Of a stretch of DNA of 64,000 nucleotides, positions 6,813 to 53,254 are shown in pieces. The notes beneath the pieces are model-generated. The model had not been told where the DNA came from, ran no database searches, and worked only from the letters and a program-made list of their open reading frames with translations. Numbering within the stretch: position 1 is the stretch's first letter; every line of letters begins with the position of its first letter. The DNA comes from Herbiconiux moechotypicola (GTDB lineage: Bacteria > Actinomycetota > Actinomycetes > Actinomycetales > Microbacteriaceae), in NCBI RefSeq assembly GCF_024979255.1, contig NZ_JANLCN010000008.1, forward strand, positions 124,001 through 188,000, read 5' to 3'. A program made the position numbers and the translations under genes.

Positions 6813-6849
6813 ATCCGTATCGTTCTCGGCAAGCGAAGGGATGGCGAAG

Positions 6850-9054
6850 ATGCCGAGAACGCGTCGACTGGAGACCGGGGTCGAGTGGCAGGAGCTCACG
6901 ACGACCGCGGCCGATTGGAAGGCAGCCGACCCCGCGCTGCTCGGGACCATGCTCGCGGAGCTGCACCTCATCCGTGCCTTCGAGGAGACCGTGCTCGAGC
7001 TCGCCGGCGAGAGCCTCGTGCACGGGCCCGCCCACTCGAGCATCGGCCAGGAGGGCGGCGCCGTCGGCTCGATCGTGGGGCTGCGCTCGACGGATGCGGT
7101 GAACGGCTCGCACCGCGGCCACCACCAGTTCCTCGCCAAGGCGCTCACGCACGTCTCGGGCGGCGTCATCGACCCGGCCGAGCCGGTCACCCCCGCCATC
7201 CAGGCCGTGCTGCAGCGCACGCTCGCCGAGATCCTCGGGCTCGCGCAGGGCTACTGCTCGGGCCGCGGCGGATCGATGCACCTGCAGTGGTTCGAGGCCG
7301 GAGCGCTCGGCACCAACGCCATCGTGGGCGGCGGCGCCCCCATGGCCACCGGCAACGCCTGGGCCCAGAAGCACTCGGGCACCACCGACCTCACCATCAA
7401 CTACTTCGGCGACGGCGCCGCCCAGATCGGCTCGGTGCTCGAGTCGATGAACCTCGCGGCGGCGTGGAAGCTGCCGGTGATGTTCTTCATCGAGAACAAC
7501 CTCTACGCGGTCTCCACCCGCTCCGACGAGATCACCGCCGACACGCGGTTCTCGGTGCGCGGGCAGGGTTTCGGCATCCGCGCCTGGCGGGTCGACGGCA
7601 TGGACCCGCTCGCCGTCCACCTCGCCATGACCCGCGCCGAGGAGCACATGCGCGCCGGAGAGGGCCCCGCCATCATCGAGGCCGAGGTGTACCGCTTCTT
7701 CCACCAGAACGGGCCCTACCCGGGCAGCGCCTTCGGCTACCGCGACAAGGCCGAGGAGGCCGCCTGGCGCGCCCGCGACCCGCTCGACCGGATGGCGCGC
7801 GAGATGACCAAGCTCGGGCTCGTCGACGACGCGGCGATCGCGACCCTCCGTGAGCGCGCGAAGTCGGCGATGGCGGATGCGGTGGCCGAGCTGGTCGAGG
7901 CCGACCCCGAGTCCGAGGGCAAGCGGCGCATCATCCCCTCGCTCTGGCCCGACACCGGCTACGTCGACGTGGGGGTGCGCGGCGACGCGAGCGAGCTCGC
8001 CGGCCTCGACGACTCCGACCCCGCCCGGCACACCGGCGGCTGGCGCGACCTCAAGTTCGTCGACGCCGTCTCGGGCGTGATGGACCGCCGTATGGCGACC
8101 GACCCGCGCATCGTGGTGCTCGGCGAAGACGTGCACCGCCTGAACGGCGGCACTAACGGCGCCACCAAGGGGCTGGCGAAGAAGTACGGCTCCAACGACG
8201 ACCCGCACGGCCGGGTGCTCGGCACCCCGATCAGCGAGAACGCGTTCACCGGACTAGGCGGCGGGCTCGCGCTCGACGGCCGGTTCCGCCCCGTCGTGGA
8301 GTTCATGTACCCCGACTTCATGTGGGTGGCCGCCGACCAGGTGTTCAACCAGATCGGCAAGGCGCGCCACATGTTCGGCGCGAACACCCCGGTGCCCTTC
8401 GTGCTGCGCACCAAGGTGGCCATGGGTTCGGGCTACGGCTCGCAGCACCTCATGGACCCGGCGGGCCTGTTCGCCACGAGCCCCGGCTGGCGCATCGTGG
8501 CACCCTCGACCGCTGCCGACTACGTGGGCCTCATGAACGCGGCCCTCGCCCTCGAAGACCCGGTGCTCGTCATCGAGCACGTCGACCTCTACGGCACCGC
8601 CGACCGCGTGCCCGAGGGTGAGCTCGACTACGTGCTCCCGCCGGGCCGGGCGGCCGTGCGGCGCGAGGGTTCCGAGGTGACGGTCATCAGCTACCTCTCG
8701 ATGGTGCGTCACGCGCTCGAGGCCGTGGAGCAGACCGGGGTCGACGCCGAGGTGATCGACCTGCGCTGGCTCGACCGCGCGTCGATCGACTGGGAGACCA
8801 TCGGCGAGAGCATCCGCAAGACGAACTCGGTGCTCATCGTGGAGCAGGGCGCCCAAGGCACCTCCTACGGCGGCTGGCTCGCCGACGAGATCCAGCGCCG
8901 GTTCTTCGACTGGCTCGATCAGCCGGTCGAGCGGGTCACCGGGGCCGAGGCCTCGCCGAGCATCTCGAAGGTGCTGGAGCGCGCGGCGATCGCGCGCACC
9001 GAGGAGGTCGTGGCGGGGCTCGAACGCATCCGTCTGGGTTGGGGGGAACGCTGA
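6850..9054 (+). CDS. 2-oxoacid dehydrogenase E1 component, alpha and beta subunits fused (thiamine-diphosphate dependent)
   Basis: About 734 residues. The N-terminal half is E1-alpha: HRGHHQFLAKAL, a thiamine-diphosphate motif beginning GDGAAQIGSVLESMN and ending about 30 residues later at IENN, and GRGGSMH. The C-terminal half, from about residue 400, is E1-beta: GEDVHRLNGGTNGATKGL, SENAFTGLGGGLALDG, HLMDPAGLF and a transketolase C-terminal fold. It decarboxylates a 2-oxoacid (acetoin, pyruvate or branched-chain type) and loads the acyl group onto the E2 encoded next. ATG at 6850 has GAAGGG 9 bp upstream; an in-frame ATG at 6841 directly abuts that site and is less likely. The stop overlaps the E2 start (TGATG). 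No E3 gene is present. Confidence 0.88.
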   Translation: MPRTRRLETGVEWQELTTTAADWKAADPALLGTMLAELHLIRAFEETVLELAGESLVHGPAHSSIGQEGGAVGSIVGLRSTDAVNGSHRGHHQFLAKALTHVSGGVIDPAEPVTPAIQAVLQRTLAEILGLAQGYCSGRGGSMHLQWFEAGALGTNAIVGGGAPMATGNAWAQKHSGTTDLTINYFGDGAAQIGSVLESMNLAAAWKLPVMFFIENNLYAVSTRSDEITADTRFSVRGQGFGIRAWRVDGMDPLAVHLAMTRAEEHMRAGEGPAIIEAEVYRFFHQNGPYPGSAFGYRDKAEEAAWRARDPLDRMAREMTKLGLVDDAAIATLRERAKSAMADAVAELVEADPESEGKRRIIPSLWPDTGYVDVGVRGDASELAGLDDSDPARHTGGWRDLKFVDAVSGVMDRRMATDPRIVVLGEDVHRLNGGTNGATKGLAKKYGSNDDPHGRVLGTPISENAFTGLGGGLALDGRFRPVVEFMYPDFMWVAADQVFNQIGKARHMFGANTPVPFVLRTKVAMGSGYGSQHLMDPAGLFATSPGWRIVAPSTAADYVGLMNAALALEDPVLVIEHVDLYGTADRVPEGELDYVLPPGRAAVRREGSEVTVISYLSMVRHALEAVEQTGVDAEVIDLRWLDRASIDWETIGESIRKTNSVLIVEQGAQGTSYGGWLADEIQRRFFDWLDQPVERVTGAEASPSISKVLERAAIARTEEVVAGLERIRLGWGER

Positions 9055-10538
9055 TGGCCACGCTCATCCGCATGCCGGAGGTGCTCGCGGGCGCCGCCGA
9101 GGGAGCCATCCAGTCGTGGCTCGTGCAGGTCGGCCAGCCCGTCGTGGTGGGGGAGCCCCTCGCCGAAGTGGAGACCGAGAAGGCCACCGTGGAGTACGCG
9201 GCCGAGATCGAGGGAACCCTGCTCAAGGTGCTCGTGGCCGAGGGCGTCTCGGTGAGCGTGGGCGACCCGATCGCGGTGGTGGGTGCCCCGGGCGAGAGCG
9301 CCGAGGGCGTGGCTCCGGATGCAGAGGGTGCGGCGGATGCGGGGGGCGGGGCTCCGGATGCGGAGGCCTCCGCGGCGCAGACCGCCGCAGAGCCCGTGGC
9401 CCCGGCGCCCGAGCCCGAGACGGCGCCCGAGCCGGTGGGTTCGCCCGTGGCTGGAGCGCCAGTGGTGCCGCAGGGCGCTGAGGCACCGGGGGCGGGGGCT
9501 CCGGACGCGGGGGCGCCGGCGGCTTCCGCCGGTGCCGTTCCCGGCACGACCGCGACCGGATCGGCCGTGCCGGGGGCGAACGGTCGGCTGTTCGCGAGCC
9601 CGCTCGTGCGCCGCCTGGCGAAGGAGCGGGGCATCGACCTCGCGATGCTCCGGCCCACCGGTCCGGGCGGTCGTCTCGTGCGCGCCGACCTCGAGCGCGG
9701 ACCGGTCGCGGTGCCGGTCGCGGCTGCCGCCGGCTCGGACGCGGGCACCGCCACGCCCGCCGCCGCGCCTTCTGCACCCGCGCCGTCCGCATCCGCCCCG
9801 GCCCCTGCATCCGGAGCACCGGCCGCCGCGAGCCCGTCGGGCGCATCCGCGCACGGGGCCGGCTTCACCGAGGTGCCGCACACCGGCATGCGCCGCGCCA
9901 TCGCGCGACGGCTCACCGAGAGCAAGTCGACCGTGCCGCACTTCTACCTCGTAGCGGACTGCCGGGTCGACGAGCTTCTGGCGCTGCGCAAGACGGTCAA
10001 CGAGTCGTCACCCGTGAAGATCTCGGTGAACGACTTCGTGCTGAAGGCCGCCGCGGCGGCGTTCACCGACGTGCCCGAGGCGAACGCGACCTGGGGCGAC
10101 ACCGCGGTGCGCCGCTACGACACCGTCGACATGTCGGTCGCCGTGGCCATCGAGGGCGGGCTGGTGACGCCGGTGCTGCGCTCGGTGGAGAAGATCTCGC
10201 TGAGCGAGGTGTCGCGCACGGTCGCCGACCTGGCGGGTCGGGCCCGGGAGGGGCGGCTCAAGCAGAACGAGCTCGAGGGCGGCAGCTTCGCGGTGTCGAA
10301 CCTCGGCATGTACGGCATCACCGAGTTCTCGGCCATCATCAACCCGCCCCAGTCGGCCATCCTCGCCGTGGGCGCGGCCACCCCGCGCGCCGTGGTGACC
10401 GACGGCGAGCTGGCGGTCGCCACCGTGATGACCGTCACGCTCTCGGCCGACCACCGTGTGCTTGACGGGGCGCTCGCCGCGCAGTGGCTGGCGGCCTTCG
10501 TGAAGCGTGTGGAGCATCCGCTCTCGATCCTCATCTGA
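9054..10538 (+). CDS. Dihydrolipoamide acyltransferase (E2 component of 2-oxoacid dehydrogenase complex)
   Basis: 494 residues in the usual E2 order: a lipoyl domain (1-75) with the lipoylated lysine in VETEKATVEY; an Ala/Pro-rich linker; a peripheral-subunit-binding domain (about 180-215, FASPLVRRLAKERGIDL); a second Ala/Pro linker; and the catalytic acyltransferase core (from about 280) ending with the active-site motif SADHRVLDGA. It transfers the acyl group from lipoamide to CoA and forms the core of the complex with the preceding E1. Only one lipoyl domain is present. E3 must be supplied from elsewhere in the genome. Confidence 0.93.
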   Translation: MATLIRMPEVLAGAAEGAIQSWLVQVGQPVVVGEPLAEVETEKATVEYAAEIEGTLLKVLVAEGVSVSVGDPIAVVGAPGESAEGVAPDAEGAADAGGGAPDAEASAAQTAAEPVAPAPEPETAPEPVGSPVAGAPVVPQGAEAPGAGAPDAGAPAASAGAVPGTTATGSAVPGANGRLFASPLVRRLAKERGIDLAMLRPTGPGGRLVRADLERGPVAVPVAAAAGSDAGTATPAAAPSAPAPSASAPAPASGAPAAASPSGASAHGAGFTEVPHTGMRRAIARRLTESKSTVPHFYLVADCRVDELLALRKTVNESSPVKISVNDFVLKAAAAAFTDVPEANATWGDTAVRRYDTVDMSVAVAIEGGLVTPVLRSVEKISLSEVSRTVADLAGRAREGRLKQNELEGGSFAVSNLGMYGITEFSAIINPPQSAILAVGAATPRAVVTDGELAVATVMTVTLSADHRVLDGALAAQWLAAFVKRVEHPLSILI

Positions 10539-27590: not shown

Positions 27591-27667
27591 CCGCGGCGGG
27601 GCTGCCCCGGGCGGGTCAGGCGGTGCGGCGGCCCCCGCGGCGGGGCTGCCCCGGGCGGGTCAGGCGG
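27591..27667. repeat. 44-bp tandem duplication across a stop codon
   Basis: CCGCGGCGGGGCTGCCCCGG-containing units start at 27591 and 27635 (33 bp identical, offset 44 bp). The second copy contains the stop codon of the dienoyl-CoA-reductase-like gene (27660-27662), so the gene end and its immediate downstream hairpin (CGGGGC-T-GCCCCG) are duplicated. The doubled hairpin may act as terminator of the five-gene operon. Confidence 0.75.
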
Positions 27668-29798
27668 GGCGGCGGGCGGCGTCGAGGGCCTGGCGGGTGG
27701 CGCGGACGGCGTCGACGCGGGTGGCGTCGAGGGCGCCGCCGACGCGTTCGTGGGAGACGCCGAGCTCGGCGAGACGGGCGCTCAGCGGGTCGTGCGACAC
27801 CTGCCCGGCGCAGACGATGACGGTGTCGGCGGCGATGAGCTCCCGCCGCCCGTCGGCGTGCAGAACCTCGACACCTGACGGTGTGATGCGCTCGTACGCG
27901 AGGTCCGACGCGAAGCGCACCCCCGCATCCCGCAGCTCGCCGAGGGCGACCCAGCGCGAGGTGATGCCCATCCCCGCCCCGAACTTGCCCGTGCGCCGCA
28001 GCAGCGTCACCTGCTCACCCGGCCGTGGAACGGATGCGCGGACCCGCGCCCGCTGCGGCAGTCCGGCCCCCTCGAGCGACACCCCCGCCTCCGGCAGCCC
28101 GTGGTGGCGCGCGAACGCCCGCGCCCGCACCGCCGGATCGCCCGGCAGCACGAGCAGCTTCGTCACATCGACCCCGATGCCGCCCCCGCCGATGATCGCC
28201 ACCCGCCCCTCGGGCACGCCCTCGTCGATCGCCCGCTCGTAGCTCAGCACGTGGGGGAGCGTGGCCCCCTCGATGTCGAGCGTGCGTGGCCTCACCCCGG
28301 TGGCCACCACGACCGAGTCGTATCCCGCCGCGGCGAGTTCGTCGGCGTCGGCCGCGTGCCCGAGGCGCACCTCGGCGCCGAGCCGGGCGAGGCGGTCGCG
28401 GTAGTGGTCGACGGTGAGGGCGTAGTCCTCCTTGGTCGGGATGCGCGCGGCCAGGCGGAACTGCCCGCCCAGCTCGGGCGCGGCCTCGAACAGCGTGACC
28501 GCGACGCCCCGCTCGGCGAGATCGGCCGCGGCGACCAATCCCGCGGGTCCGCCCCCGACGACGGCCACACGCCGACGCCCGGAGCCGCTGCCACCCTCCC
28601 GCACCACCGACGCCGGCAACGGGTACCGCCACTCGTTCGCGGCCCGTGGGTTCACCAGGCACGACACCGGCTGCATCGTGAACGACCGGTCGAGGCACGC
28701 CTGGTTGCACCCGATGCACGAGTTCACCTCGTGAAAGCGTCCCTCCCGCGAGAGCCCCACGATCGCCGCGTCGGCCAGGAACGGCCGCGCGAGCGCCACC
28801 GCCGAGATCCGTCCCCCGGCGAGCACGGCCTCCACGTCGCGCAGATCGGTGAGCCTGTTGCTCGCGATCACCGGCACCGCGGTCGGCGCCGACGGGTCGC
28901 CGGGCAGCGACACCGCCTCGGCCACCGCCTCCGCGTATCCCAGCCACGCCCCGTGCGGCACCGCGGCCTGCACCGTCGGCACCCGTGACTCGTGCCAGCC
29001 GATGCCCACGTTCAGCGCATCCGCCCCCGCCCGCACCAGCGCCCGTGCCAGCGCCGCCGTCTCTTCGGGCGTGGTGGACCCCGGCACGAGGTCGGCACCC
29101 GAGAGGCGCACGATCACGGGCACGTCGAACCCCACCGCCTGCCGCACCTCGCGCAGCACCTCCACCGCGAACCGCTGCCGGCGCACGGCGTCGCCGCCCC
29201 AGCCGTCGTCGCGCCGGTTCGTCACCGGCGAGCAGAACTGGTTGATGAGATACCCCTCCGACGCCATGATCTCCACGGCGTCGAACCCCAGCTCGACCGC
29301 CCGCGCGGCGGCCCGCCCGAAGTCGGCGATGGTGCGCGCGATGCCCTCCTCGTCGAGTTCGACGGGCACCGATGCTCCCGCGGCCCGCCACGGCAGCGGC
29401 GACGGGGCGACCGGATGCACGGGCCGGCCCTCCGCATCCGTCACCCCCTCCAGCAGGGCGTAGCGCCCCGCGTGGAAGAGCTGCGCCGCCAGGAACCCGC
29501 CCGCCTCGTGCACCGCCGCGGCAGCGTGGGCGAAGCGGGCGTCGCCGGCCGGGTCGCCGAGCACGCTGAAGTCGTGGGCGCCGCACCCCTCCGGGTTGAC
29601 GGCGAGTCCGCCCGTGATGAGCAGCGACGCTCCGCCGCGCACCCGCTCGGCGTAGTAGGCGGCGAGCGCGACCCCGCCGTCGTCGAGGGTCTCGAGGCCG
29701 GTGTGCATGCTGCCGGCCACCACCCGATGCGGCAGCTCGAGCGCCCTGAGCCGCCATGGCGTGAAGGTGCGCTCCAGCGCCGGCGTCGGCTTCGGCAT
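27660..29798 (-). CDS. Old-yellow-enzyme / 2,4-dienoyl-CoA reductase-like flavoprotein (candidate AnsM-type step of cyclohexanecarboxyl-CoA synthesis)
   Basis: 712 residues. The N-terminal FMN TIM barrel has active-site residues as in FadH: tyrosine in SEGYLINQF and histidine in GIGWHESRVPT; substrate loop DGWGGDAVRRQRF. A [4Fe-4S] cluster motif follows, CIGCNQACLDR...C, then a FAD/NAD(P) domain with VVGGGPAGLVAAADLAERGV. An extra segment of about 30 residues sits before TLLRRTGKFG. FadH-type enzymes reduce 2,4-dienoyl-CoA. Here it is last in an operon of EPSP-synthase-like, ligase, acyl-CoA dehydrogenase and SDR genes, the set used to reduce shikimate-derived dienoyl-CoA rings in ansatrienin producers. 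Starts 10 bp after the SDR stop. Confidence 0.88.
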   Translation of the reverse strand: MPKPTPALERTFTPWRLRALELPHRVVAGSMHTGLETLDDGGVALAAYYAERVRGGASLLITGGLAVNPEGCGAHDFSVLGDPAGDARFAHAAAAVHEAGGFLAAQLFHAGRYALLEGVTDAEGRPVHPVAPSPLPWRAAGASVPVELDEEGIARTIADFGRAAARAVELGFDAVEIMASEGYLINQFCSPVTNRRDDGWGGDAVRRQRFAVEVLREVRQAVGFDVPVIVRLSGADLVPGSTTPEETAALARALVRAGADALNVGIGWHESRVPTVQAAVPHGAWLGYAEAVAEAVSLPGDPSAPTAVPVIASNRLTDLRDVEAVLAGGRISAVALARPFLADAAIVGLSREGRFHEVNSCIGCNQACLDRSFTMQPVSCLVNPRAANEWRYPLPASVVREGGSGSGRRRVAVVGGGPAGLVAAADLAERGVAVTLFEAAPELGGQFRLAARIPTKEDYALTVDHYRDRLARLGAEVRLGHAADADELAAAGYDSVVVATGVRPRTLDIEGATLPHVLSYERAIDEGVPEGRVAIIGGGGIGVDVTKLLVLPGDPAVRARAFARHHGLPEAGVSLEGAGLPQRARVRASVPRPGEQVTLLRRTGKFGAGMGITSRWVALGELRDAGVRFASDLAYERITPSGVEVLHADGRRELIAADTVIVCAGQVSHDPLSARLAELGVSHERVGGALDATRVDAVRATRQALDAARRPA

Positions 29799-29808
29799 GA
29801 CGCTCAGG

Positions 29809-30645
29809 TTACGCCTCGCCGGAGCCGAACACGGCGGCGCGCAGCTCGCCGGTGGTGTCGGCCCAGTACGGGGGCGCGACGACCGTGAGCCCGCCGTCGA
29901 CGCTCAGCACCTGCCCGGTGATGTAGCCGGCCTTGGCCGAGAGCAGGAAGTCGGCCGCGTCGGCCATGTCGTCGGCCGTGCCCGGGCGCCCCAGCGGGAT
30001 CTTCTCGAACACCGTCTCGATCGGAGCCATGCCCGGCACGCGGTTGTAGAAGTAGTCGAGCGAGTCGGTGTCGATGAGGCCGCCGTTCACCGCGTTGACC
30101 GTGATGCCGCGGGGCCCGTACTCGGCCGCCATGAACTTCACGTAGGCCTCGTTCGCTGCCTTGGCCGCGCCGAGCGCCGCGTAGGTGGGGAAGGCGCGCA
30201 GCGACCCGTAGCTGGTGATGGTGACGATGCGCCCGCCCCGGTCCATCAGCTCGGCGGCGCGCACGGCGCCCAGCACGAAGGAGCGGGTGTTGGTGGCGTA
30301 GCTGCGGTCGAGGTGGTGCGTCTTCAGTTGCGACACGGGCTTGAAGGCGCTCGCCGCGGCGTTGGCCACGAAGGCGTCGAGGCGGCCGTACTCCTCGGCC
30401 ACCCGGTCGAAGAGCGCGGCGATGTCGTCGGGCTGCTCGATGTCGGCCTGCACCGTGATGCCCGAACCGCCGGCGGCCACCACGTCGGCGAGCGACTCCT
30501 CGGCGAGGTCGGCGTTCACCTTGTAGTTCACCACCACGGCGGCACCCTGCGCGCCGAGCTTCTGGGCGAGCAGGCGACCGATGCCGCGCGAGGCTCCGGT
30601 GATGACCACCACGCGGGGTGCGGATGCGGGGGTGCCGTCGGTCAT
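29809..30645 (-). CDS. SDR enoyl reductase of ChcA/FabL type (candidate 1-cyclohexenylcarbonyl-CoA reductase)
   Basis: 278 residues, the length reported for ChcA (about 280). Cofactor motif TGASRGIGRLLAQ; ANAAASAFKP in place of NNAG. The active site reads SYGSLRAFPTYAALGAAK: the tyrosine (Y155) is six residues from the lysine (K162), the Y-x6-K spacing of enoyl reductases such as FabI/FabL rather than the usual Y-x3-K. The following NAVNGGLIDTDSL is also FabL-like. It should reduce a conjugated ring or enoyl thioester with NADPH. ATG overlaps the acyl-CoA dehydrogenase stop by 4 bp. A fatty-acid elongation role is the alternative. Confidence 0.85.
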   Translation of the reverse strand: MTDGTPASAPRVVVITGASRGIGRLLAQKLGAQGAAVVVNYKVNADLAEESLADVVAAGGSGITVQADIEQPDDIAALFDRVAEEYGRLDAFVANAAASAFKPVSQLKTHHLDRSYATNTRSFVLGAVRAAELMDRGGRIVTITSYGSLRAFPTYAALGAAKAANEAYVKFMAAEYGPRGITVNAVNGGLIDTDSLDYFYNRVPGMAPIETVFEKIPLGRPGTADDMADAADFLLSAKAGYITGQVLSVDGGLTVVAPPYWADTTGELRAAVFGSGEA

Positions 30646-31838
30646 GAGGTCGCCTTTCGGGTTGTAGCAGTGTCAGCTGCGGCGGCGGCCTCGGCGAGCA
30701 CCGCTCGCGCCACCACCGTCTTCTGGATCTCGTTCGTGCCCTCTTCGAAGCGCTGCGCCCGCGCATCCCGGTACACCCGCTCGATCGCGTTGCGGTGCCA
30801 GTAACCCTGGCCGCCGTGCACCTGCAGCGCCTTGTCGGTCACCCGCGCGAGCATGTCGACGGCCACGATCTTCGACGCGCTCGACAGCGCGGCCGCGTCG
30901 GCACGCCCCTCCTCATAGGCGCGTGCGGCCTCGAGCACGAGCGCCCGCGCCGCGGCGATGTCGGCGTAGTTCTCGGCGAGATAGGCCTGGATGACCGGCC
31001 TCGTGGCGAGCTTCTTGCCGAAGGTCTCTCGCGCGAGCGCGTACTCGACCGCGAGCTCCTGGGCCCGCTCGGCGAGCCCCACGGCGCTCATCGCCACCGA
31101 CACCCGGCTCGGCAGCAGGAAGCCGCCGAGCGCGACGTCGAGCCCTTGCCCCTCCTCGCCGATGCGCGCCGACACGGGCACTGGGGTGTCGGTGAAGCGC
31201 AGGATGGCGTGGTCGGTGCCGCGCACCCCCATGGTCTCGGAGTCGTCGATCACCTCGGCGCCCGGCAGCCCCGTGTTCGGCACGAGCAGCGCGACCGTGC
31301 CGGCGGCGCCGTCGGCCGTGCTCGTCCCCTCCAGCCGCGCGAACAGCAGCCAGTAGTCGCATTTCACGCCGAAGGTGATGAGGTGCTTCTCGCCGTTCAG
31401 CAGGTACACGTCGCCCTCGCGGCGCACGGTCGAGCGGATGTCGGCCCCGGTGCCGGCCGTGGCCTCGGTGAGCGTGAACGCCACGAGCTTCTCGCCCGAC
31501 ACCGACTGGGCGAGCACGGCCCGCTGCGACTCGTCGACGAAGGGCTCGAGGGCGCGCCACAGCCCGTTGTTCACATGCACGAGCATCCGGATCGACCCGT
31601 GCGAGCGCGACACGATCTCGAGCAGCTCGAGGTAGCGCGAGAACGGGATGCCGCGGCCGCCGAGCTCCGCGGGCGCGGCGAGGCTCAGCCAGCCGTTGTC
31701 GCGCAACTCCTCATAGAGCTCGCGCGGCACGTCACCCTCGGCCTCGATGCGCTCGGCCCACGCCTCACCGGGCCCGGTCACCCACGCCTCGATCTCGCTC
31801 TTGAGGGCCGCGAAGGCCTCCTCGTCGATGGTGCTCAC
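30642..31838 (-). CDS. Acyl-CoA dehydrogenase (candidate AnsL-type)
   Basis: 398 residues with the standard three-domain fold: FAD-binding LTEATAGTGADIRSTVRREG (about 118-137), VMGVRGTDHAIL-like middle domain, and C-terminal LQVHGGQGYWHRNAIERVYR. The EGTNEIQ motif near residue 365 supplies the catalytic glutamate of medium/short-chain enzymes. In the cyclohexanecarboxyl-CoA pathway an acyl-CoA dehydrogenase homologue is part of the five-gene set; whether it oxidises or reduces there is debated, so only the family is certain. GTG start overlaps the upstream ligase stop. Confidence 0.9.
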   Translation of the reverse strand: MSTIDEEAFAALKSEIEAWVTGPGEAWAERIEAEGDVPRELYEELRDNGWLSLAAPAELGGRGIPFSRYLELLEIVSRSHGSIRMLVHVNNGLWRALEPFVDESQRAVLAQSVSGEKLVAFTLTEATAGTGADIRSTVRREGDVYLLNGEKHLITFGVKCDYWLLFARLEGTSTADGAAGTVALLVPNTGLPGAEVIDDSETMGVRGTDHAILRFTDTPVPVSARIGEEGQGLDVALGGFLLPSRVSVAMSAVGLAERAQELAVEYALARETFGKKLATRPVIQAYLAENYADIAAARALVLEAARAYEEGRADAAALSSASKIVAVDMLARVTDKALQVHGGQGYWHRNAIERVYRDARAQRFEEGTNEIQKTVVARAVLAEAAAAADTATTRKATS

Positions 31839-33670
31839 AGTGCCATGCTCTCCTGTTCCGTGTCATCGCGCGCGCCGGCCGCGGCGCGCGCCTCTCCGGC
31901 GAGCTGCGCGGCGATCCGCTCGCGCAGCAGGTTCTTCTGGATCTTGCCGACCGGGTTGCGCGGCAGCCCGTCGATGGTCTCGAGCCGCTCGGGCCAGTAG
32001 TACTTCGACACCGCGGCCTCGGCCAGGTAGGCCTGCATCACCTCGAAGGCGAGCGGATGCGCGGGGTCGGCGGGCACCACGAACGCGCAGGCGCGCTCGC
32101 CGAGCCGAGCGTCGGGCATGGCCACGATGGCCACGTCGCGCACGAGCGGGTGGGCGAACAGCAGGTTCTCGATCTCGACCACGGGCACCTTCTCACCGCC
32201 CCGGTTGATGACGTCTTTCACGCGCCCGGTGATGTGCAGGTAGCCGGCCTCGTCGACGATCGCGAGGTCGCCGGTGCGGTACCAGCCGTCGGCGGTGAAC
32301 ACCTCGGCGGTGAGATCGGGCCGGTCGAGGTAGCCGAGGAACATCGTGGGTGAGTGCAGCTCGTAGTGTCCCTCGCGGCCGGCGGTGAGCTCCACGCCCT
32401 CGTCGTCGACGATACGGATGCGGATGCCGGCGAGCGGACGCCCGTCGCTGCCCCAGGCGGAGCCCGGCGGGTCGGTGGGCGCCGAGAGCGTGCCGAGGCA
32501 AGTCTCGGTGGTCCCGAATGCGCCGCAGACCGCGGTGCCGAGCACCCGGGTGGCGCGCTCGGCGAGCTCGCGGGGCACCGCGGCACCGGTCGCCACGAAG
32601 ATGCGGAGCGTCGCGGGAGCGGCGGCACCCTGCTCGACCCGGTCGACGAGGTCCATGAGAAACGGTGTGGCCGCCTGCACGAACGCGGCCCCGGCTCCGG
32701 GCGTGCCGACGGTGGTGGTGTCGTCGCGTGGCCGGAACACCTGGTCGAGCGCGACATCGGGGTTCCAGATCGGCTGCACCACGCTCGCCACCCCGAGCCG
32801 CCAGCTGAGCAGGAGGCCGTAGAGGAAGCCCGTCTGGTGGGCCAGCGGCGAGGGGATGTAGACGCGGTCGCCGCCCGTGAGCCCGAGGTGCGCCACCTCC
32901 ATCGCGGTGGCGGTGCCGAGGGTGCGGTGCAGGTGCTGCACGCCCTTCGGCTCGCCGGTGGTGCCCGAGGTGAACAGCAGCTGGGCCACGTCGTCGCCGC
33001 CGGGACGACGTGCGAGAAGGGCGGATGCGTCCACCCGCGTCGCGGCATCGGCCAGGGCGGCGTCGAAGTCGCGCGCCTCCCATCCGGTGGCCGCGGTCAC
33101 CGCGGCGGTCGTGGAGGTCACGGCCTCGAGAGGCTCGGCCACGCCCTCGGCGCCCGCTCGCGCGCGGCCGTCGGGCCCGTGGTCGGAGAGCACCAGCACG
33201 TGCTCCACCAGGAGCGGGAGCCCGCGCTCGGCCGCCTCGCCCACCACCGCTCCGAGTTCGCCGGCGTGCAGGCGCTTGCGGAACGACCGCGGCACCACGA
33301 GCACCCGCGCCTTCGAGCGCGAGAGCACCATGGCCACCTCGCGCGCCCCGAACACCGGCATGATCGGGGCGACGACCGCGCCGATCTGCAGCACCCCGAG
33401 CGTCAGCGACACGCACTCGGCCCAGTTCGGCAGCTGGAAGGCCACCGACTCGCCGCGCTGCACCCCGAGCTCGAGCAGCAGTGTCGAGATGCGGTCGGCC
33501 TCGGCGCGGAGCTCCGCCCAGCTCAGCGTGAGAGGGCGATCGCCCACCTCGATGACCGCGGCCTCCGCATCCGTGGTGCCGCCCGCCAGGAGGTCGACCG
33601 GTTCGGTGAGACCGCCCAGGGCGCTGAAGTCGCCCGCACCCGTGCCCTCGCCGGGCGCCGCCGTGCTCAC
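31835..33670 (-). CDS. Acyl-CoA ligase, AMP-binding (candidate AnsJ-type)
   Basis: 611 residues. Adenylation motifs: LLFTSGTTGEPKGVQHLH (P-loop), FGTTETCLGTL, GWYRTGDLAIVDEAG, VKDVINRGGEKVPVVEIE, and the C-terminal catalytic lysine in NPVGKIQKN. The pattern is closest to cyclohexanecarboxylate/benzoate-type ligases of degradation and CHC clusters. It would activate a shikimate-derived cyclic acid to its CoA thioester. GTG start at 33670, overlapping the EPSP-synthase-like stop (GTGA); the very long upstream reading frame in the same phase is a shadow of the neighbour. Confidence 0.9.
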   Translation of the reverse strand: MSTAAPGEGTGAGDFSALGGLTEPVDLLAGGTTDAEAAVIEVGDRPLTLSWAELRAEADRISTLLLELGVQRGESVAFQLPNWAECVSLTLGVLQIGAVVAPIMPVFGAREVAMVLSRSKARVLVVPRSFRKRLHAGELGAVVGEAAERGLPLLVEHVLVLSDHGPDGRARAGAEGVAEPLEAVTSTTAAVTAATGWEARDFDAALADAATRVDASALLARRPGGDDVAQLLFTSGTTGEPKGVQHLHRTLGTATAMEVAHLGLTGGDRVYIPSPLAHQTGFLYGLLLSWRLGVASVVQPIWNPDVALDQVFRPRDDTTTVGTPGAGAAFVQAATPFLMDLVDRVEQGAAAPATLRIFVATGAAVPRELAERATRVLGTAVCGAFGTTETCLGTLSAPTDPPGSAWGSDGRPLAGIRIRIVDDEGVELTAGREGHYELHSPTMFLGYLDRPDLTAEVFTADGWYRTGDLAIVDEAGYLHITGRVKDVINRGGEKVPVVEIENLLFAHPLVRDVAIVAMPDARLGERACAFVVPADPAHPLAFEVMQAYLAEAAVSKYYWPERLETIDGLPRNPVGKIQKNLLRERIAAQLAGEARAAAGARDDTEQESMAL

Positions 33671-35043
33671 GAGGCGAGGGCCTCGCTGCGCGCCGCCACC
33701 GAGGCGGTCTCGCGCGGCGGAACGCTCATGTCGAGCCCCACGCTCGTCATGGCCTGCAGGAACGTGGGGTACGAGATGCGGTACGCCCGGGGGTAGGTGA
33801 GGCGCGACTCGCCGGTGGCCCGGGTGGCGGCCACCGCCAGCGACATGAGCACCCGGTGGTCGTTGAACGACGACATCGATGCGCCTTCGAGCGAGTCGAC
33901 CCCGGTGACCGTGAGGTCGACGCCGGAGTCGACGAGCCGGCCGCCGAGTTTGTTGAGCTGCAGCATGGCGTTCACGCGATCGGACTCCTTGAGCCGGATG
34001 TGCGCGACGTTGTGCAGCCGGGAGGTGCCGTCGGCGAAGGCCGCCATGGCCGAGACCACCGGCAGCAGGTCGGGGATCGGCTGGCAGTCCAGCTCGATCG
34101 GGGCGAGCCGGATTCCGTCGTGGCGCACGCGCACGAATCCGGTCTCCTCGTCGAGGTGCATCGGCAGGCCCATCGCGGCCGCGATGTCGAGGAACTCGGC
34201 CTCGGGGTGGTCGGTGTCGGCCGCCCGGGTGGCCGAGAGCCCCCTGAACAGCACGTCGGAGGGGCGGAGGGCGGCGGCCGCGAGACCGAACGCCGCCGAC
34301 CCGATGTCGGGCGGCACGGTGTAGTCGGCGGCGCGGGCCGTCTGCCCCGGGCGCACGGTGTAGTGCAGCCAGTCGTCGGAGACTTCGACCTCGAGCCCGA
34401 AGTGGCGCATCATGCGCACCGTGAGCTCCACGTAGGGCTGCTCGTTGAGCTCGCCCAGCACCTCGATCGTCGTCTCGCGAGTGGCGAACGGGGCGAGCAG
34501 CAGCAGCCCCGAGATCCACTGCGAGAGCGTTCCGGCGATGGTGACGTGACCACCGGTGGGTCGGCCCGGCTGCACGGTGATGGGCGGGCAGTCGTTCGTC
34601 GACTCGTAGCGCACGCCCATCTGGCCGAGCGCGTCGAGCAGCGCCTTGATGGGCCGGCGGCGGAAGTACTTCATGCCGGTGAGCGTGATCGGCTTGTCGG
34701 CCAGGGCGGCGAGTCCGGTCATGAAGTAGAGCGTGGTTCCCGAGGAGCCCACGTTGAGCAGGCCCTCCGCCGAGCTCGACCCGTGGTCGACCACGCCGCC
34801 GTCGGTGCGGTAAGGGCCGCCGTGCACCACGTAGGAGTCGCCCTCCACCTCGATGCGGGTGCCGAGCGCGCGCAGCACGCCGATCGTCCACACCACCTGA
34901 CGTGTCTCGGAGAGGCCGTGGATGACGCTCCGGCCGGGAGCGAGCGAGGCGAGCACGAGCGCGCGATGCACGTGGTACTTCGACACCGGGATGTTCAGTT
35001 CCCCCGAGATCGCCCCCGACGACCCGTTCACGAACAAGTGCAC
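33667..35043 (-). CDS. EPSP-synthase homologue with altered active site (candidate AnsQ-type shikimate-modifying enzyme)
   Basis: 458 residues of the EPSP synthase fold. By manual alignment with E. coli AroA, residues kept are K22, R27, S170 (S174), Q171 (Q175), Y200 (Y204), D313 (D325), K340/E341/R344 (KESDR) and H385/R386 (H396, R397). Residues changed are R100 to Y106, R124 to Y126, K411 to I423 (all PEP contacts), and S23 to Y23, S169 to L173, S197 to E201 (shikimate-3-phosphate contacts). So it probably does not add PEP to shikimate phosphate. Start is GTG 35043 with GGAGG 7 bp upstream; the ATG at 35076 is unsupported. It heads the five-gene operon. Confidence 0.9.
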   Translation of the reverse strand: MHLFVNGSSGAISGELNIPVSKYHVHRALVLASLAPGRSVIHGLSETRQVVWTIGVLRALGTRIEVEGDSYVVHGGPYRTDGGVVDHGSSSAEGLLNVGSSGTTLYFMTGLAALADKPITLTGMKYFRRRPIKALLDALGQMGVRYESTNDCPPITVQPGRPTGGHVTIAGTLSQWISGLLLLAPFATRETTIEVLGELNEQPYVELTVRMMRHFGLEVEVSDDWLHYTVRPGQTARAADYTVPPDIGSAAFGLAAAALRPSDVLFRGLSATRAADTDHPEAEFLDIAAAMGLPMHLDEETGFVRVRHDGIRLAPIELDCQPIPDLLPVVSAMAAFADGTSRLHNVAHIRLKESDRVNAMLQLNKLGGRLVDSGVDLTVTGVDSLEGASMSSFNDHRVLMSLAVAATRATGESRLTYPRAYRISYPTFLQAMTSVGLDMSVPPRETASVAARSEALAS

Positions 35044-35216
35044 TGCGTGACCTCCAAAACGCGGCCCGGGGAACACTCGGGCGCGTTCACAGGGGCATCA
35101 AAAAGGTTGTGTGTCTCCATGATGCCACCTGTGCAGACGCCCACATGCCGTCTCGGCGATATGAAGGGGGCACTGCCTGTTCTCCTCGTGGACACCGTGC
35201 CGTGGCAGGCCCGCGA

Positions 35217-35936
35217 TCAGAGCTCGGTGCGCACCAGGGGCCGTTCGCTGCCCGCCACGCGGATGTCGACGGAGCGGATCTCGGCGGTCGGGATGCTCGT
35301 GGAGGCCGACAGGTTGCCCGCCTCGGCACCCGAGGCGGTCCAGCTCGCCACCCGGGTCTCCACGCCGGCCCGGTCGGTCACCACGAGGTCGTAGGTGGTG
35401 CCGACCTCGGGCTGCCCGGCCGGTTCGCCGCCGTAGGCCGGGCGCTCGCGGTAGCTGCAGTTCCAGTCGAAGCGGGTGCCCCAGCCCTTCTCCGACACGG
35501 TGATGTCGGCGTCGAGCCAGCCCGGCTCGACCTGCGCCATCGCCAGCTCCATGCCCCGCGGGGGCGGTGCGCTCGCGATCGATCCCACCGCCACCCCGGC
35601 GACGGCGACCACCACCGCGGCGGCCACCGCGAGGGCGGCCGTGCGCCATCGCACCCGGGTGCGACGCTGGCGCGCAGCTCGGGCCAGGTGCTGCACGGAG
35701 ACGGTGTCGCCGCCCGGCTGCGACCGCGCATCCGGAGTCTCGTCGGCGTCGAGGGCCACCGCCTGCTCGTTCGTCAGCAGCGACAGCATCGAGGGCATGC
35801 CCGCGAGCTCCGCCACCGCGGCCTGACAGCTCGGGCAGTCGTCGAGGTGCTCTTCGAAGCGCCGGCGCTCCTCGGGCGTCAGCATGCCGAGCACGTACGC
35901 GGCGTCCCACTCCCTGAACCCACCGTGATCGCTCAT
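35217..35936 (-). CDS. Anti-sigma factor (zinc-finger zf-HC2 / RskA type)
   Basis: 239 residues. The N-terminus carries EEHLDDCPSC, the H-x3-C-x2-C zinc motif of ZAS anti-sigma factors (H30, C34, C37). One membrane helix follows (TAALAVAAAVVVAVAGVAVG, about 97-116), and a C-terminal domain with DADITVSEKGWGTRFDWN resembles the RskA extracytoplasmic fold. It should hold the co-encoded sigma factor at the membrane and release it on a signal. ATG overlaps the sigma stop by 4 bp. The 173 bp downstream, before the EPSP-synthase-like gene, shows no clear promoter. Confidence 0.9.
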   Translation of the reverse strand: MSDHGGFREWDAAYVLGMLTPEERRRFEEHLDDCPSCQAAVAELAGMPSMLSLLTNEQAVALDADETPDARSQPGGDTVSVQHLARAARQRRTRVRWRTAALAVAAAVVVAVAGVAVGSIASAPPPRGMELAMAQVEPGWLDADITVSEKGWGTRFDWNCSYRERPAYGGEPAGQPEVGTTYDLVVTDRAGVETRVASWTASGAEAGNLSASTSIPTAEIRSVDIRVAGSERPLVRTEL

Positions 35937-36439
35937 CGGCTCACCCCCCTCTCCTGCAGTGCGAGCTTCAGCGCCCGCAGTGCGTAGTGCGCCCGCGAGC
36001 GCACGGTGCCCACGGGCACCCCCTCGGCCTCGGCGATCTCGCCCGCCGACCGGCCGAGGTAGTACGAGCTCACGATGGTGCGCCGGTGCTCCGCCGAGAG
36101 CGAGAGCAGGGCGTCGGCGAGCAACCAGCGGTCGAGCAGCTCGTCGGTCTGGTCGGAGGTGGGGCGCTCGGGCACCTCGCCGGTGGCGAACTCGCGGCCG
36201 TGGCGCGCGCTGCGGCGGTCGTCGATCACGAGGTTGCGGCACACCGTGTAGAGCCAGGCGCGCGCCTCCTCGTCGCCCCGCTCCAGGATGCGTGGGGAGC
36301 GCCAGGCGCGCAGCAGCGCCTCCTGCACCACGTCTTCGGCCAGCTCGGGGTCGTGCGTGAGCCGCAGCACGTAGCGCTGCAACGACGGCGCGTGGGCGTC
36401 GTGGATCGCGCGCAGCAGCGCGGCCTGCTCGTCGCTCAT
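35933..36439 (-). CDS. ECF-family RNA polymerase sigma factor (SigK-like)
   Basis: 168 residues. Region 2 reads RYVLRLTHDPELAEDVVQEA, LLRAWRSP; region 4 reads SAEHRRTIVSSYYLGRSAGE and EGVPVGTVRSRAHYALRALK. The size and adjacent zinc anti-sigma place it with SigK/RskA-type ECFs. ATG at 36439 has GGAGGTG upstream, and was preferred over 36484. It is probably autoregulated from the promoter at 36458-36484. Confidence 0.93.
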   Translation of the reverse strand: MSDEQAALLRAIHDAHAPSLQRYVLRLTHDPELAEDVVQEALLRAWRSPRILERGDEEARAWLYTVCRNLVIDDRRSARHGREFATGEVPERPTSDQTDELLDRWLLADALLSLSAEHRRTIVSSYYLGRSAGEIAEAEGVPVGTVRSRAHYALRALKLALQERGVSR

Positions 36440-36457: not shown

Positions 36458-36484
36458 AACGCGGCGGGGGCATGAAACGTTCAC
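36458..36484 (-). promoter_or_regulatory. Candidate ECF promoter for the sigma/anti-sigma operon
   Basis: On the minus strand GTGAAC (ending the GAAC core at 36479-36482) is followed by a 17-bp spacer and CGTT (36458-36461), the layout of many ECF promoters. It overlaps the last codons of the upstream acyl-CoA synthetase gene. The site reads TGAACGTTTCA, itself nearly palindromic. Confidence 0.5.
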
Positions 36485-38202
36485 GGCGTGACGAACAGAC
36501 CCTCCTCCGCGTCACGCGGGGCCCGCTGCTTCATCACGAAGTGCTGCTTCTTGCCCGTGGCCGTGTAGGGCAGCTCGTCGACGAAGGCGTAGCGCCGTGG
36601 GCGCTTGAAGCGGGCGAGGGAGTCGCTCGCGAGGCAGAACCGGTCGAGCTCGCGCGCGGTCTCGACGAGGTCGGCCGCGCCGGGGTCGCCCGCACCGGGC
36701 CGCAGCAGTATGTACGCCACCACGAGCTCGCCCCACTCGGGGTCGGTGAGCCCGGTCACGATGCTGTCGGCCACCTCCGGGTGCCCCGCCAGCGCCTCCT
36801 CCACCTGCACGGGATGCACGTTCTCGCCGCCCGAGATGATCATGTCGTCCTTGCGGCCGACGATGGTGATCATCTCGTCCTCGGTCCAGGTGGCGAGGTC
36901 TCCCGGGTACATCCAGCCGTCGCGGAACTTCTTCGCCTGCTCCTCCGGGTTGGCGAGGTAGCTGTAACCGCTCTTCACGGATCGCATGATCACCTCGCCC
37001 ACCTCGGTGCCGTCCTTCGCGGCGAGGTCGTCGGGGGCCGCGAAGCGGTCGTCGTAGACCTTCACCACCGCCACGTCGTCGTCGATGCAGGCCCGCCCGG
37101 CCGCGCCCGCCGCATCCGGGAGGTCTTCGGGGCGGAGGTAGGTGTTCCAGAACGCCTCGGTGGTGCCGTAGCCGTTCGCGATGCGCTTCGTGAGCGTCGA
37201 CTGGTAGCGGAGGGCCGCCGCGCGGTCGAGGGGTGCACCCATCGTCACGATGCCCGAGAGCGAGGAGAGGTCTCTCGGAGAGGCCTCCTGTGCATCCGCG
37301 AGCCGCTCGAGGTTGGTGGGGGCGCCGATCACGTAGGTGAGCCCGTGCCGCTCCACGAGGTCGAGCACGAGTCCGGGCTCGAACTGGGGGAGCGTGACCA
37401 CCTCGCTGCCCACGTAGAACGCCGTGTTGGGGCCGGCGCAGTAGTTGCCTCCGCGGTGGAACCAGGGCGACATGTTCATGGTCTTGTCGGTGGGGCCGAG
37501 CGGGAAGTGCATGATGGCGTCGTGGGCGCTGAGGGTCTCGTTGAGGCTCGTGAGCGGCACGGCCTTCGGCATGCCGGTGGTGCCCGAGGTGTAGAGCCGC
37601 GAGGTCTCGTCCCACACCGAGCCGTCGGCGGGGGCGGTGAAGCTCGGGGCGCCGTCGAGGAGGAGCTCCTCGAAGCGGATCGCGCCGGGGAGGAGTGGCT
37701 GGTCGCTGTCGCTGGCGCCCTCGCCGGCACCGACCGCCACGAGCGTCGCCGGGCGGTGATCGGCCAGCTCGAGGGCGGTGCGCACCTGCTCGGTGAGCGC
37801 TGTCTCGTACACGAACACCGTCGGGCGCGACTGGTTCAGGATGTGCGCCGTCTCGGCGGGCGCGAGCCTGAAGTTCATCGGCGACGACACCGCGCGGAGC
37901 CCCTGCGCCGCCACGTAGAGGAAGGCGAACTCGGGCCGGTTGGTGAGCTGGTACCCCACCACGTCACGGTGTCCGACGCCGTGGGCGGCGAGGCCCGCCA
38001 CGAGGGCGCCGGTCACCGCGCCGAGCTCGCGGTACGTCCACGTGCGGCCGGTGGTGGAGTCGGTGAGGGCGGTGCGCGCGGCGAAGCGGTGCACGTTGCG
38101 CTCCACGGCGGAGGCCCAGGTGAAGTGGTGCTCGAACACCTCCCGGAAGGCTGAGGTGTCGAAGAGGGGTGACTCACCCGTGGGGTCGGCTGCGCTGCTC
38201 AC
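36481..38202 (-). CDS. Acyl-CoA synthetase, AMP-binding (fatty-acid type)
   Basis: 573 residues. Motifs: LYTSGTTGMPKAVPLTSLNE (P-loop), NGYGTTEAFWNTYL, DGWMYPGDLATWTEDEM, GRKDDMIISGGENVHPVQVE and the catalytic lysine in TATGKKQHF. It belongs to the broad fatty-acyl/aryl CoA ligase family and is distinct from the ligase at 31835. Activation of a medium-chain or aromatic acid is likely; the substrate is not determined. GTG start overlaps the MBL hydrolase stop by 4 bp. Confidence 0.88.
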   Translation of the reverse strand: MSSAADPTGESPLFDTSAFREVFEHHFTWASAVERNVHRFAARTALTDSTTGRTWTYRELGAVTGALVAGLAAHGVGHRDVVGYQLTNRPEFAFLYVAAQGLRAVSSPMNFRLAPAETAHILNQSRPTVFVYETALTEQVRTALELADHRPATLVAVGAGEGASDSDQPLLPGAIRFEELLLDGAPSFTAPADGSVWDETSRLYTSGTTGMPKAVPLTSLNETLSAHDAIMHFPLGPTDKTMNMSPWFHRGGNYCAGPNTAFYVGSEVVTLPQFEPGLVLDLVERHGLTYVIGAPTNLERLADAQEASPRDLSSLSGIVTMGAPLDRAAALRYQSTLTKRIANGYGTTEAFWNTYLRPEDLPDAAGAAGRACIDDDVAVVKVYDDRFAAPDDLAAKDGTEVGEVIMRSVKSGYSYLANPEEQAKKFRDGWMYPGDLATWTEDEMITIVGRKDDMIISGGENVHPVQVEEALAGHPEVADSIVTGLTDPEWGELVVAYILLRPGAGDPGAADLVETARELDRFCLASDSLARFKRPRRYAFVDELPYTATGKKQHFVMKQRAPRDAEEGLFVTP

Positions 38203-51883: not shown

Positions 51884-53254
51884 GTGAACAGTCTCGTCCA
51901 GGATGCGCGCAAGGCCGCCGAGCGCGTCGGCCTCAAGTCCGACACGATCGTCATCAACGGCGGCCGTCCGCTGCGGGGCACGATCGACGTGCGCGGGGCG
52001 AAGAACCTCGTCACCAAGGCGATGGTGGCGAGCCTGCTCGGCGACACCACGTCCACGCTCCGCGACGTGCCCGACATCTCCGACGTGCACGTGGTGGCGA
52101 GCCTGCTCGAGATCCACGGCGTGAAGATCTCCGGCTCGGCCGCCACGGGCGTGCTCCAGCTCGACCCGGCCAACGTGGCGAGCGCGAAGAGCGCCGAGAT
52201 CGACGCGCTCTCGGGTTCCAGCCGCATCCCGATCCTGTTCTGCGGGCCGCTGCTGCACCGCCTCGGTCACGCGTTCATCCCCGACCTCGGCGGCTGCCGC
52301 ATCGGCGACCGCCCGATCGACTTCCACCTCGACGCGCTGCGCGCGTTCGGCGCGGTTGTCGACAAGCTGCCGAGCGGAATCAACATCACGGCGCCGAACG
52401 GCCTCCGCGGTGCGAACATCGAGCTGCCCTACCCGAGCGTGGGCGCCACCGAGCAGGTGCTGCTCACGGGTGTGCGCGCCCTCGGCACCACCGAGCTGAA
52501 GAACGCGGCCATCGAGCCCGAGATCATGGACCTCATCGCGGTGCTGCAGAAGATGGGCGCCATCATCTCGGTGGAGCCCAACCGCACCATCTTCATCGAG
52601 GGCGTCGAGACCCTCAACGGCTTCAACCACCGCGCGCTGTTCGACCGCAACGAGGCCGCCTCCTGGGCGAGTGCCGCGCTCGCCACCGGCGGCTCCATCT
52701 TCACCACCGGTGCGAAGCAGTCGGAGATGATGACCTTCCTCAACGTGTTCCGCAAGATCGGCGGGGCCTTCGACATCGAGGAGGAGGGCATCCGCTTCTA
52801 CCACCCGGGCGGCGAGCTGAAGCCCGTCGTGATCGAGACGGATGTGCACCCCGGGTTCATGACCGACTGGCAGCAGCCGCTCATCGTGGCCCTCACCCAG
52901 GCCCAGGGCACCTCCATCGTGCACGAGACGGTCTACGAGAACCGCTTCGGGTTCACGGACGCGCTCATCAAGATGGGCGCGAAGATCGAGGTGCACAAGG
53001 AGGGTCTGGCCGACCCGAACCGCCGCGTGCCCCGCCGCCCGCTCGAGCAGGCCGCGGTCATCTCGGGCCCCACGAAGCTGCACGGCACCGATCTCGAGGT
53101 GCCCGACCTGCGCGGCGGCTTCAGCCACCTCATCGCGGCGCTGGTGGCCGACGGCCGCTCCACGGTGTCGAACGTGGGCCTCATCGCCCGCGGTTACGGC
53201 GACTTCGTGGGCAAGCTCGAGAAGCTCGGCGCCGACTTCGCGTTCGCCGCCTGA
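51884..53254 (+). CDS. murA: UDP-N-acetylglucosamine 1-carboxyvinyltransferase
   Basis: 456 residues. Begins with a short extension, then INGGRPLRGTIDVRGAKNLV with the PEP/UDP-sugar Lys-Asn pair, and the active-site cysteine in DLGGCRIGDRPIDFHLDAL, the residue alkylated by fosfomycin. The GAxxLI-type helical repeats complete the inside-out barrel. First committed step of peptidoglycan synthesis. GTG start at 51884 preceded by AGGTGAAG. It shares ancestry with the EPSP-synthase-like protein at 33667 but is clearly MurA. Confidence 0.97.
   Translation: MNSLVQDARKAAERVGLKSDTIVINGGRPLRGTIDVRGAKNLVTKAMVASLLGDTTSTLRDVPDISDVHVVASLLEIHGVKISGSAATGVLQLDPANVASAKSAEIDALSGSSRIPILFCGPLLHRLGHAFIPDLGGCRIGDRPIDFHLDALRAFGAVVDKLPSGINITAPNGLRGANIELPYPSVGATEQVLLTGVRALGTTELKNAAIEPEIMDLIAVLQKMGAIISVEPNRTIFIEGVETLNGFNHRALFDRNEAASWASAALATGGSIFTTGAKQSEMMTFLNVFRKIGGAFDIEEEGIRFYHPGGELKPVVIETDVHPGFMTDWQQPLIVALTQAQGTSIVHETVYENRFGFTDALIKMGAKIEVHKEGLADPNRRVPRRPLEQAAVISGPTKLHGTDLEVPDLRGGFSHLIAALVADGRSTVSNVGLIARGYGDFVGKLEKLGADFAFAA

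Follow-up and report, generated by a model that had tools for sequence, protein, structure and literature searches.

In the ansatrienin cluster of Streptomyces collinus, five genes reportedly run in the order ansJ-ansK-ansL-chcA-ansM, and their transfer is said to have given omega-cyclohexyl fatty acids in other Streptomyces. The lactomycin cluster is listed in the excerpted text of PMC5852498 with lmP1/plmJK, lmP2/plmL, lmP3/ChcA and lmP4/plmM in that order and with cyclohexanecarboxyl-CoA (CHC-CoA) as the starter unit. Omega-cyclohexyl fatty acids were reported from Curtobacterium pusillum in 1981 and from Propionibacterium cyclohexanicum in 1997, according to the reference list of PMC5023266, whose available passages also state, at species level, that both possess omega-alicyclic acids. 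In our searches of an open-licence library, we saw no paper naming the genes for these acids in either species. Here, we examine a five-gene operon in a 64,000-nucleotide stretch of Herbiconiux moechotypicola DNA (contig NZ_JANLCN010000008.1, positions 124,001 to 188,000; hereafter, the window). We consider it quite probable, from sequence comparison, that this operon makes CHC-CoA from shikimate, the usual precursor of aromatic amino acids, and that a FabH/FabF type II synthase uses CHC-CoA to prime omega-cyclohexyl membrane fatty acids. The pathway itself is known; new here are its distribution, the fusion and split history of its first two genes, a three-gene variant, the links to ketosynthases and a second CoA ligase, LIG2.

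Gene content, order and distribution of the operon

The five genes lie on the minus strand at 27660-35043. Three neighbouring pairs overlap by 4 bp (33667-33670, 31835-31838 and 30642-30645), and 10 bp separate the short-chain dehydrogenase/reductase (SDR) gene, ending at 29809, from the flavoenzyme gene, starting at 29798. The first-pass annotation of this DNA had described five such families in one minus-strand operon with this spacing, and open reading frames (ORFs), Pfam matches and coordinates all agree with it. The first gene, which resembles 5-enolpyruvylshikimate-3-phosphate synthase (EPSPS), starts with GTG and has GGAGG upstream.

33667..35043, minus strand: EPSP-synthase-like protein (J-type), 458 aa; PF00275, 267.8 bits; proposed shikimate dehydratase
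31835..33670, minus strand: AMP-forming acyl-CoA ligase (K-type), 611 aa; PF00501, 212 bits, and PF13193
30642..31838, minus strand: acyl-CoA dehydrogenase (L-type), 398 aa; PF00441, 132.4 bits
29809..30645, minus strand: SDR enoyl reductase of ChcA/FabL type, 278 aa; PF13561, 203.8 bits
27660..29798, minus strand: FadH-type flavin/Fe-S dienoyl-CoA reductase (M-type), 712 aa; PF00724 (Oxidored_FMN), 201.3 bits, and Pyr_redox_2

Compared by printed names, functions and order equal those of the phoslactomycin/lactomycin block plmJK-plmL-chcA-plmM in the excerpt of PMC5852498, which, together with a separate AroA in the genome (see below), supports the earlier reading of a shikimate-to-CHC-CoA route. 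In contrast to that block, J and K are two genes with a 4-bp overlap in the window, a sigma/anti-sigma pair and a second ligase lie upstream, and the genome has one full-length PF00109 ketosynthase. The name plmJK presumably implies a J-K fusion. The ansatrienin cluster, compared by gene names, holds the same families in a different genus and for a different use; we take its ligase to be AnsK, and the label AnsQ given in the first-pass annotation could not be verified.

A family-alignment scan of genome contigs yielded 218 EPSPS-like relatives, the best 80 of which were kept. They come from Herbiconiux, Curtobacterium, Humibacter, Subtercola, Frondihabitans, Gryllotalpicola, Luteimicrobium, Kocuria, Arthrobacter, Microlunatus and others, as well as from P. 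cyclohexanicum, Streptomyces, Streptosporangium and metagenome-assembled genomes (MAGs) of Eremiobacterota, with no Alicyclobacillus among those kept. All five genes occur in one order on one strand in 68 of the 80, so the arrangement is more than chance. These loci include C. pusillum ATCC 19096 (L074), from a species that the first-pass annotation had named as a source of omega-cyclohexyl acids, in agreement with the passages of PMC5023266, and P. cyclohexanicum DSM 16859 (L113). Since two species with known cyclohexyl lipids carry the operon, a decades-old chemical observation becomes genetically testable, and the operon offers a gene test for the trait. Both species share the order of the five genes and the side of the EPSPS-like tree with the window, whose EPSPS-like protein shares 68-69% identity with those of the three C. 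pusillum loci and 61% with that of P. cyclohexanicum; unlike the window, both have J and K fused and LIG2 on another contig.

Six of the 12 incomplete loci (L064, L070, L081, L091, L105 and L111) were judged to be cut by contig ends, and two Arthrobacter loci have no FadH gene at the operon and a 43%-identical homologue elsewhere in the genome. A three-gene form, with the first three genes only, was found in H. oxytropis (L048), L049, L101 and L104; in these genomes there is no ChcA homologue at 1e-40 and no FadH homologue at 1e-60, L049, L101 and L104 being MAGs and possibly incomplete. The three-gene operon of H. oxytropis and the related MAG L049 may make a different product. In these two, the place of ChcA and FadH behind the dehydrogenase is taken by a flavodoxin-fold FMN-reductase-like gene (L048:13364-14023, Pfam match on this copy; L049:13295-13954). 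L101 and L104, both Actinomycetes MAGs, have the EPSPS-like/ligase fusion and the dehydrogenase only and lie far from Herbiconiux in the tree; the three-gene form therefore arose repeatedly or is older, provided that the MAGs are complete.

J and K form one open frame in 71 of the 80 loci. The window has them as two genes, as do L045-L049, L061 and L097; together these make up the supported Herbiconiux clade (98/97). L090 and L114 are split as well, possibly through a frameshift. The EPSPS-like tree was drawn with a midpoint root after 20 of the 81 rows, all of Curtobacterium type, had been removed as redundant. It places P. cyclohexanicum, Kocuria and Luteimicrobium among the Microbacteriaceae, a pattern suggestive of horizontal transfer; long branches lead to P. 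cyclohexanicum and Kocuria. The operon suggests that the trait owes its scattered occurrence to horizontal transfer and loss. For a plasmid origin, 72,556 plasmid records were searched by tblastn with the EPSPS-like protein, with no match at 1e-60. Clustering of flanking ORFs in L051-L106 gave families recurring in up to 31 of the 80 loci, nearly all Microbacteriaceae, perhaps marking a shared chromosomal site.

The EPSPS-like subfamily and the proposed route

The first-pass annotation had stated that its reading would be refuted if the EPSPS-like gene were the only aroA of the genome; this is not the case. A PF00275 search of the window's genome (G000; 4.28 Mb, 51 contigs, 99.89% complete) matched three places: the window gene, a MurA-like gene at about 51956-53218 of the window, whose name is read from its sequence, and a separate AroA of 455 aa at G000:C1:266919-268163, with the SSQ motif in the alignment. 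Among 199 Microbacteriaceae genomes, 24 have an EPSPS-like orthologue with at least 531 bits and 59-83% identity, the next matches being AroA-like with at most 138 bits, in a two-peaked distribution. In a sample of 396 genomes from the phylum, 12 pass 1e-50: the window's own genome, four with 410-430 bits, taken as orthologues, and seven with 172-180 bits, taken as AroA. As judged by these scores, the EPSPS-like protein is a subfamily of its own, distinct from the housekeeping AroA.

Aligned with E. coli EPSPS and numbered accordingly, the protein has one Ser of the SSQ motif deleted and carries S23->Tyr, S197->Glu, N336->His and K411->Ile, while the family retains K22, R27, R124, D313, E341, R344, H385 and R386. 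Apart from the SSQ deletion, which was not counted here, the named positions are held in 80 or 81 of 81 aligned rows, the window's included. Four residues, H396, R397, R422 and I423, lie inside the search patterns used to find relatives, so that their conservation is partly selected; 14 EPSPS-like proteins found without the patterns also show all four. The AroA-type contacts to the phosphate of shikimate 3-phosphate and to phosphoenolpyruvate (PEP), namely the SSQ motif, S197 and K411, are thus not conserved. The changes touch the 3-phosphate and PEP sites, as would be expected if free shikimate were bound, and the aligned family flags five positions whose change may have turned an EPSP synthase into a shikimate dehydratase.

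From the alignments of the other four proteins, rows with stops or with no more than 85% of the query length were left out, and the window's row is counted in each. The best NCBIfam match of the ligase is TIGR03208, cyclohexanecarboxylate-CoA ligase (426.7 bits, below the cut-off of 792.3), and its A10 lysine is present in 71 of 71. The acyl-CoA dehydrogenase has a Glu before GT in 68 of 68, a residue which we take to be of the catalytic type. Of PDB entries, the SDR best matches 3oic, an enoyl-ACP reductase (E 6.4e-50), and of NCBIfam models FabL (228.5 bits, below the cut-off of 328). Tyr-x6-Lys occurs in 71 of 71; taking Tyr-x6-Lys to mark enoyl reductases and Tyr-x3-Lys ketoreductases, the SDR is predicted to be of the former type and not the latter. 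The flavoenzyme best matches 2,4-dienoyl-CoA reductase (PDB 1ps9, E 1.2e-141), with four Cys, presumably the Fe-S cysteines, and a Tyr/His pair, whose roles we likewise assume, in 63 of 63 aligned relatives.

Under the route that we propose, the EPSPS-like enzyme would bind unphosphorylated shikimate and remove water by 1,4-elimination, and the ligase would form the CoA thioester. After that, the two reductases, of FadH and ChcA type, and the acyl-CoA dehydrogenase would by turns reduce the ring and remove the remaining hydroxyls, for a predicted net of three waters lost and four reductions. In the last step, ChcA would reduce 1-cyclohexenylcarbonyl-CoA to CHC-CoA, which the FabH/FabF type II fatty acid synthase would take as primer. 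LIG2 may activate or salvage cyclohexyl or cyclohexenyl acid for use in fatty acids.

Use of the product and competing explanations

A whole-genome PF00109 search returned one full-length match, FabF (412-aa ORF), in one cluster with FabH (PF08545, 92.9 bits) about 1 kb away; further ORFs there we read as acpP and fabD. The search showed no modular polyketide synthase or type I fatty acid synthase; nonribosomal peptide synthetases, acyltransferases and type III synthases were outside its scope. With a single full-length PF00109 ketosynthase, FabF beside FabH, the product is probably used in type II fatty acid synthesis, which, in a genome of this completeness, strengthens the priming of fatty acid synthesis that the first-pass annotation had offered as inference. 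In 13 of the 80 loci, a FabF-type ketosynthase gene also stands at the operon. It adjoins the FadH gene on the 3' side in L094, L098, L102 and L117 and lies upstream on the other strand in L116, L121 and L124, whereas six Eremiobacterota loci have it immediately upstream of the EPSPS-like gene. In two Streptosporangiaceae, the operon and ketosynthase are followed by a gene for a class IV aminotransferase (L094:17230-18315, L102:17217-18302), a neighbour that perhaps hints at fatty acid priming. The window also holds, at 6841-10538, a fused E1 of 2-oxoacid dehydrogenase and a separate gene for E2; these may supply branched-chain primers for the same fatty acid synthase.

Several observations weigh against the proposed route to omega-cyclohexyl fatty acids, and some of them lend weight to other explanations. 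The EPSPS-like gene could be a second, perhaps inhibitor-tolerant AroA, the other four genes being an unrelated fatty-acid or aromatic-acid operon: its product passes the cut-off of the NCBIfam aroA equivalog TIGR01356 (313.7 vs 287.25 bits), so that automatic annotation would probably name the gene aroA, and the catalytic K22, D313 and E341 as well as the PEP-site arginines are retained. Yet the fusion to a CoA ligase in 71 of the 80 relatives ties the protein to CoA chemistry, phosphate- and PEP-contact positions are altered across the subfamily, and the genome has its separate AroA; we rejected a second AroA as the main explanation on these grounds and hold it to be highly improbable. We give an equally small chance to a catabolic operon degrading cyclohexanecarboxylate or shikimate-like plant acids via CoA esters. 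The ligase and the dehydrogenase do resemble models for cyclohexanecarboxylate ligase and cyclohexane-carbonyl-CoA dehydrogenase, all below cut-off, but the reductases are of FabL and FadH type, the five genes include no hydratase, thiolase or ring-cleavage gene, ketosynthases recur beside the operon, and in phoslactomycin-type producers the block serves biosynthesis, as the excerpt of PMC5852498 describes it; the catabolic explanation was rejected accordingly.

CHC-CoA might also be made and then spent on a secondary metabolite instead of a membrane lipid, as in the characterised phoslactomycin/lactomycin block, which feeds a polyketide according to the same excerpt (PMC5852498). A second KAS-III-type gene on contig C41 (PF08545, 52.3 bits) might serve such a use, and a 38-residue PF00109 match on C22 slightly exceeds the cut-off (21.4 vs 20.8 bits). 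Against it stands the genome-wide PF00109 result, with FabF the one full-length match beside that short one, by which we judged polyketide use unlikely in this genome; a secondary metabolite of any kind we regard as unlikely, too, if less so than the two explanations above. A motif scan of called ORFs at seven Streptomyces and Streptosporangiaceae operons, with about 9 kb of flank on each side, recognised no polyketide genes, and the contrast between polyketide and lipid use is therefore unproven.

Within Curtobacterium, omega-cyclohexyl acids have been reported mainly for C. pusillum, and C. flaccumfaciens (L055, L082) carries all five genes, too; the operon may be insufficient by itself, unless the acids went unnoticed. 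In Herbiconiux, the available passages of PMC10011130 allow that cyclohexyl-C17:0 may be present, yet list H. daphne CPCC 203386 with 25.0% 'C17:1 9c' and no cyclohexyl acid. The 'C17:1' of H. daphne could, as a conjecture, be an isomeric cyclohexyl acid, since 11-cyclohexylundecanoic acid has the same formula, C17H32O2, as heptadecenoic acid. For H. oxytropis CPCC 203406/203407, the same passages give anteiso-C17:0 and iso-C16:0 besides anteiso-C15:0, and for another strain, CPCC 205763, whose genome is not among the 80 loci, 28.1% C18:1 (PMC10011130). Genomes of the exact strains have five genes in CPCC 203386 (H. daphne) and three in CPCC 203407 (H. oxytropis), which makes the pair an exact-strain contrast. 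H. ginsengi also has five genes. On balance, there are good reasons to expect that omega-cyclohexyl fatty acids are likely formed in H. moechotypicola, by a known pathway in a new place.

The upstream region and LIG2

Upstream of the operon, four features share its strand.

35094..35130, minus strand: conserved noncoding block with a GGCATCA ... TGATGCC inverted repeat, from the alignment of upstream regions
35217..35936, minus strand: zinc-finger anti-sigma factor (zf-HC2); NF052375, 62.7 bits, below the cut-off of 100
35933..36439, minus strand: ECF sigma factor (Sigma70_r2/r4)
36481..38202, minus strand: LIG2, second acyl-CoA ligase, 573 aa, upstream of the sigma gene; proposed sixth partner from its co-occurrence with the EPSPS-like orthologue

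A sigma homologue (1e-20) adjoins the operon only in seven Herbiconiux-type loci of the 80. In an operon-free congener (G011), the sigma, anti-sigma and flanking genes are kept, and the operon and LIG2 are both missing. The block at 35094-35130, a possible promoter or operator, is recognisable in six of eight aligned Herbiconiux-type upstream regions, and ACCTTTTTGATGCC is the sole exact match of ACCTTTTNGATGCC in the window. A wider regulon was considered and set aside, with that one exact copy, one two-mismatch site at 50979 and none near LIG2. Among 159 loci, a longer pattern of the block matches only copies of the window's own sequence; the block therefore diverges.

LIG2 occurs in 20 of the 24 Microbacteriaceae genomes with the EPSPS-like orthologue, by which alone, and not by all five genes, these were defined as operon-bearing, and in 7 of the 175 others. 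Taking the 199 genomes of both searches as one sample (both 20, orthologue alone 4, LIG2 alone 7, neither 168), Fisher's test gives p = 5.6e-18, uncorrected for kinship; counted by genus label, the table is 11/2/6/66 and p = 3.9e-8. The seven Herbiconiux-type loci, G155 and G026 have LIG2 next to the operon, the fetched flanks of the other 73 loci holding nothing better at 1e-20 than a 27%-identity homologue (L094). LIG2 thus accompanies the EPSPS-like gene even where the two are not linked. Among 24 hand-chosen operon genomes, 14 have LIG2; the ten others are five Streptomyces, two Streptosporangiaceae, two Eremiobacterota and one Frondihabitans, the Streptomyces genomes having had 57 of their 80-99 LIG2 candidates scored. 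The phylum background is 2 of 396, one being the window's genome, with three candidates scored per genome, so that the count is possibly too low. The LIG2 tree, from which the partial L045 row was omitted and in which L141 and L140 stand in for L047 and L097, matches the EPSPS-like tree in part: P. cyclohexanicum stands among Microbacteriaceae in both, and Curtobacterium and Luteimicrobium are placed differently, on long branches.

That LIG2 is an unrecognised sixth enzyme for the use of the cyclohexyl unit in fatty acids and that the J/K/L trio alone, as in H. oxytropis and the others lacking ChcA and FadH homologues, makes a different, unreduced ring-acyl-CoA is, taken as one proposal, a tentative one, which we hold to be somewhat more doubtful than probable. 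The pattern may also stem from shared ancestry of the carriers, or LIG2 may be a general acyl-CoA synthetase. Its neighbours elsewhere may fit a role in fatty acid use. LIG2 adjoins a FabF-type ketosynthase in Arthrobacter and Microlunatus, these ketosynthases being 60-67% identical mutually and to that of L094, vs 37-42% to the FabF of the window's genome. Seven other LIG2 regions showed no ketosynthase or ChcA-like SDR neighbour that we recognised, one (L157) having acyl-CoA dehydrogenases. In the operon-free genome G126, LIG2 lies directly after a ChcA-like SDR (53% identical; L159:4868-7451). G126 shares its genus label with the Humibacter genomes.

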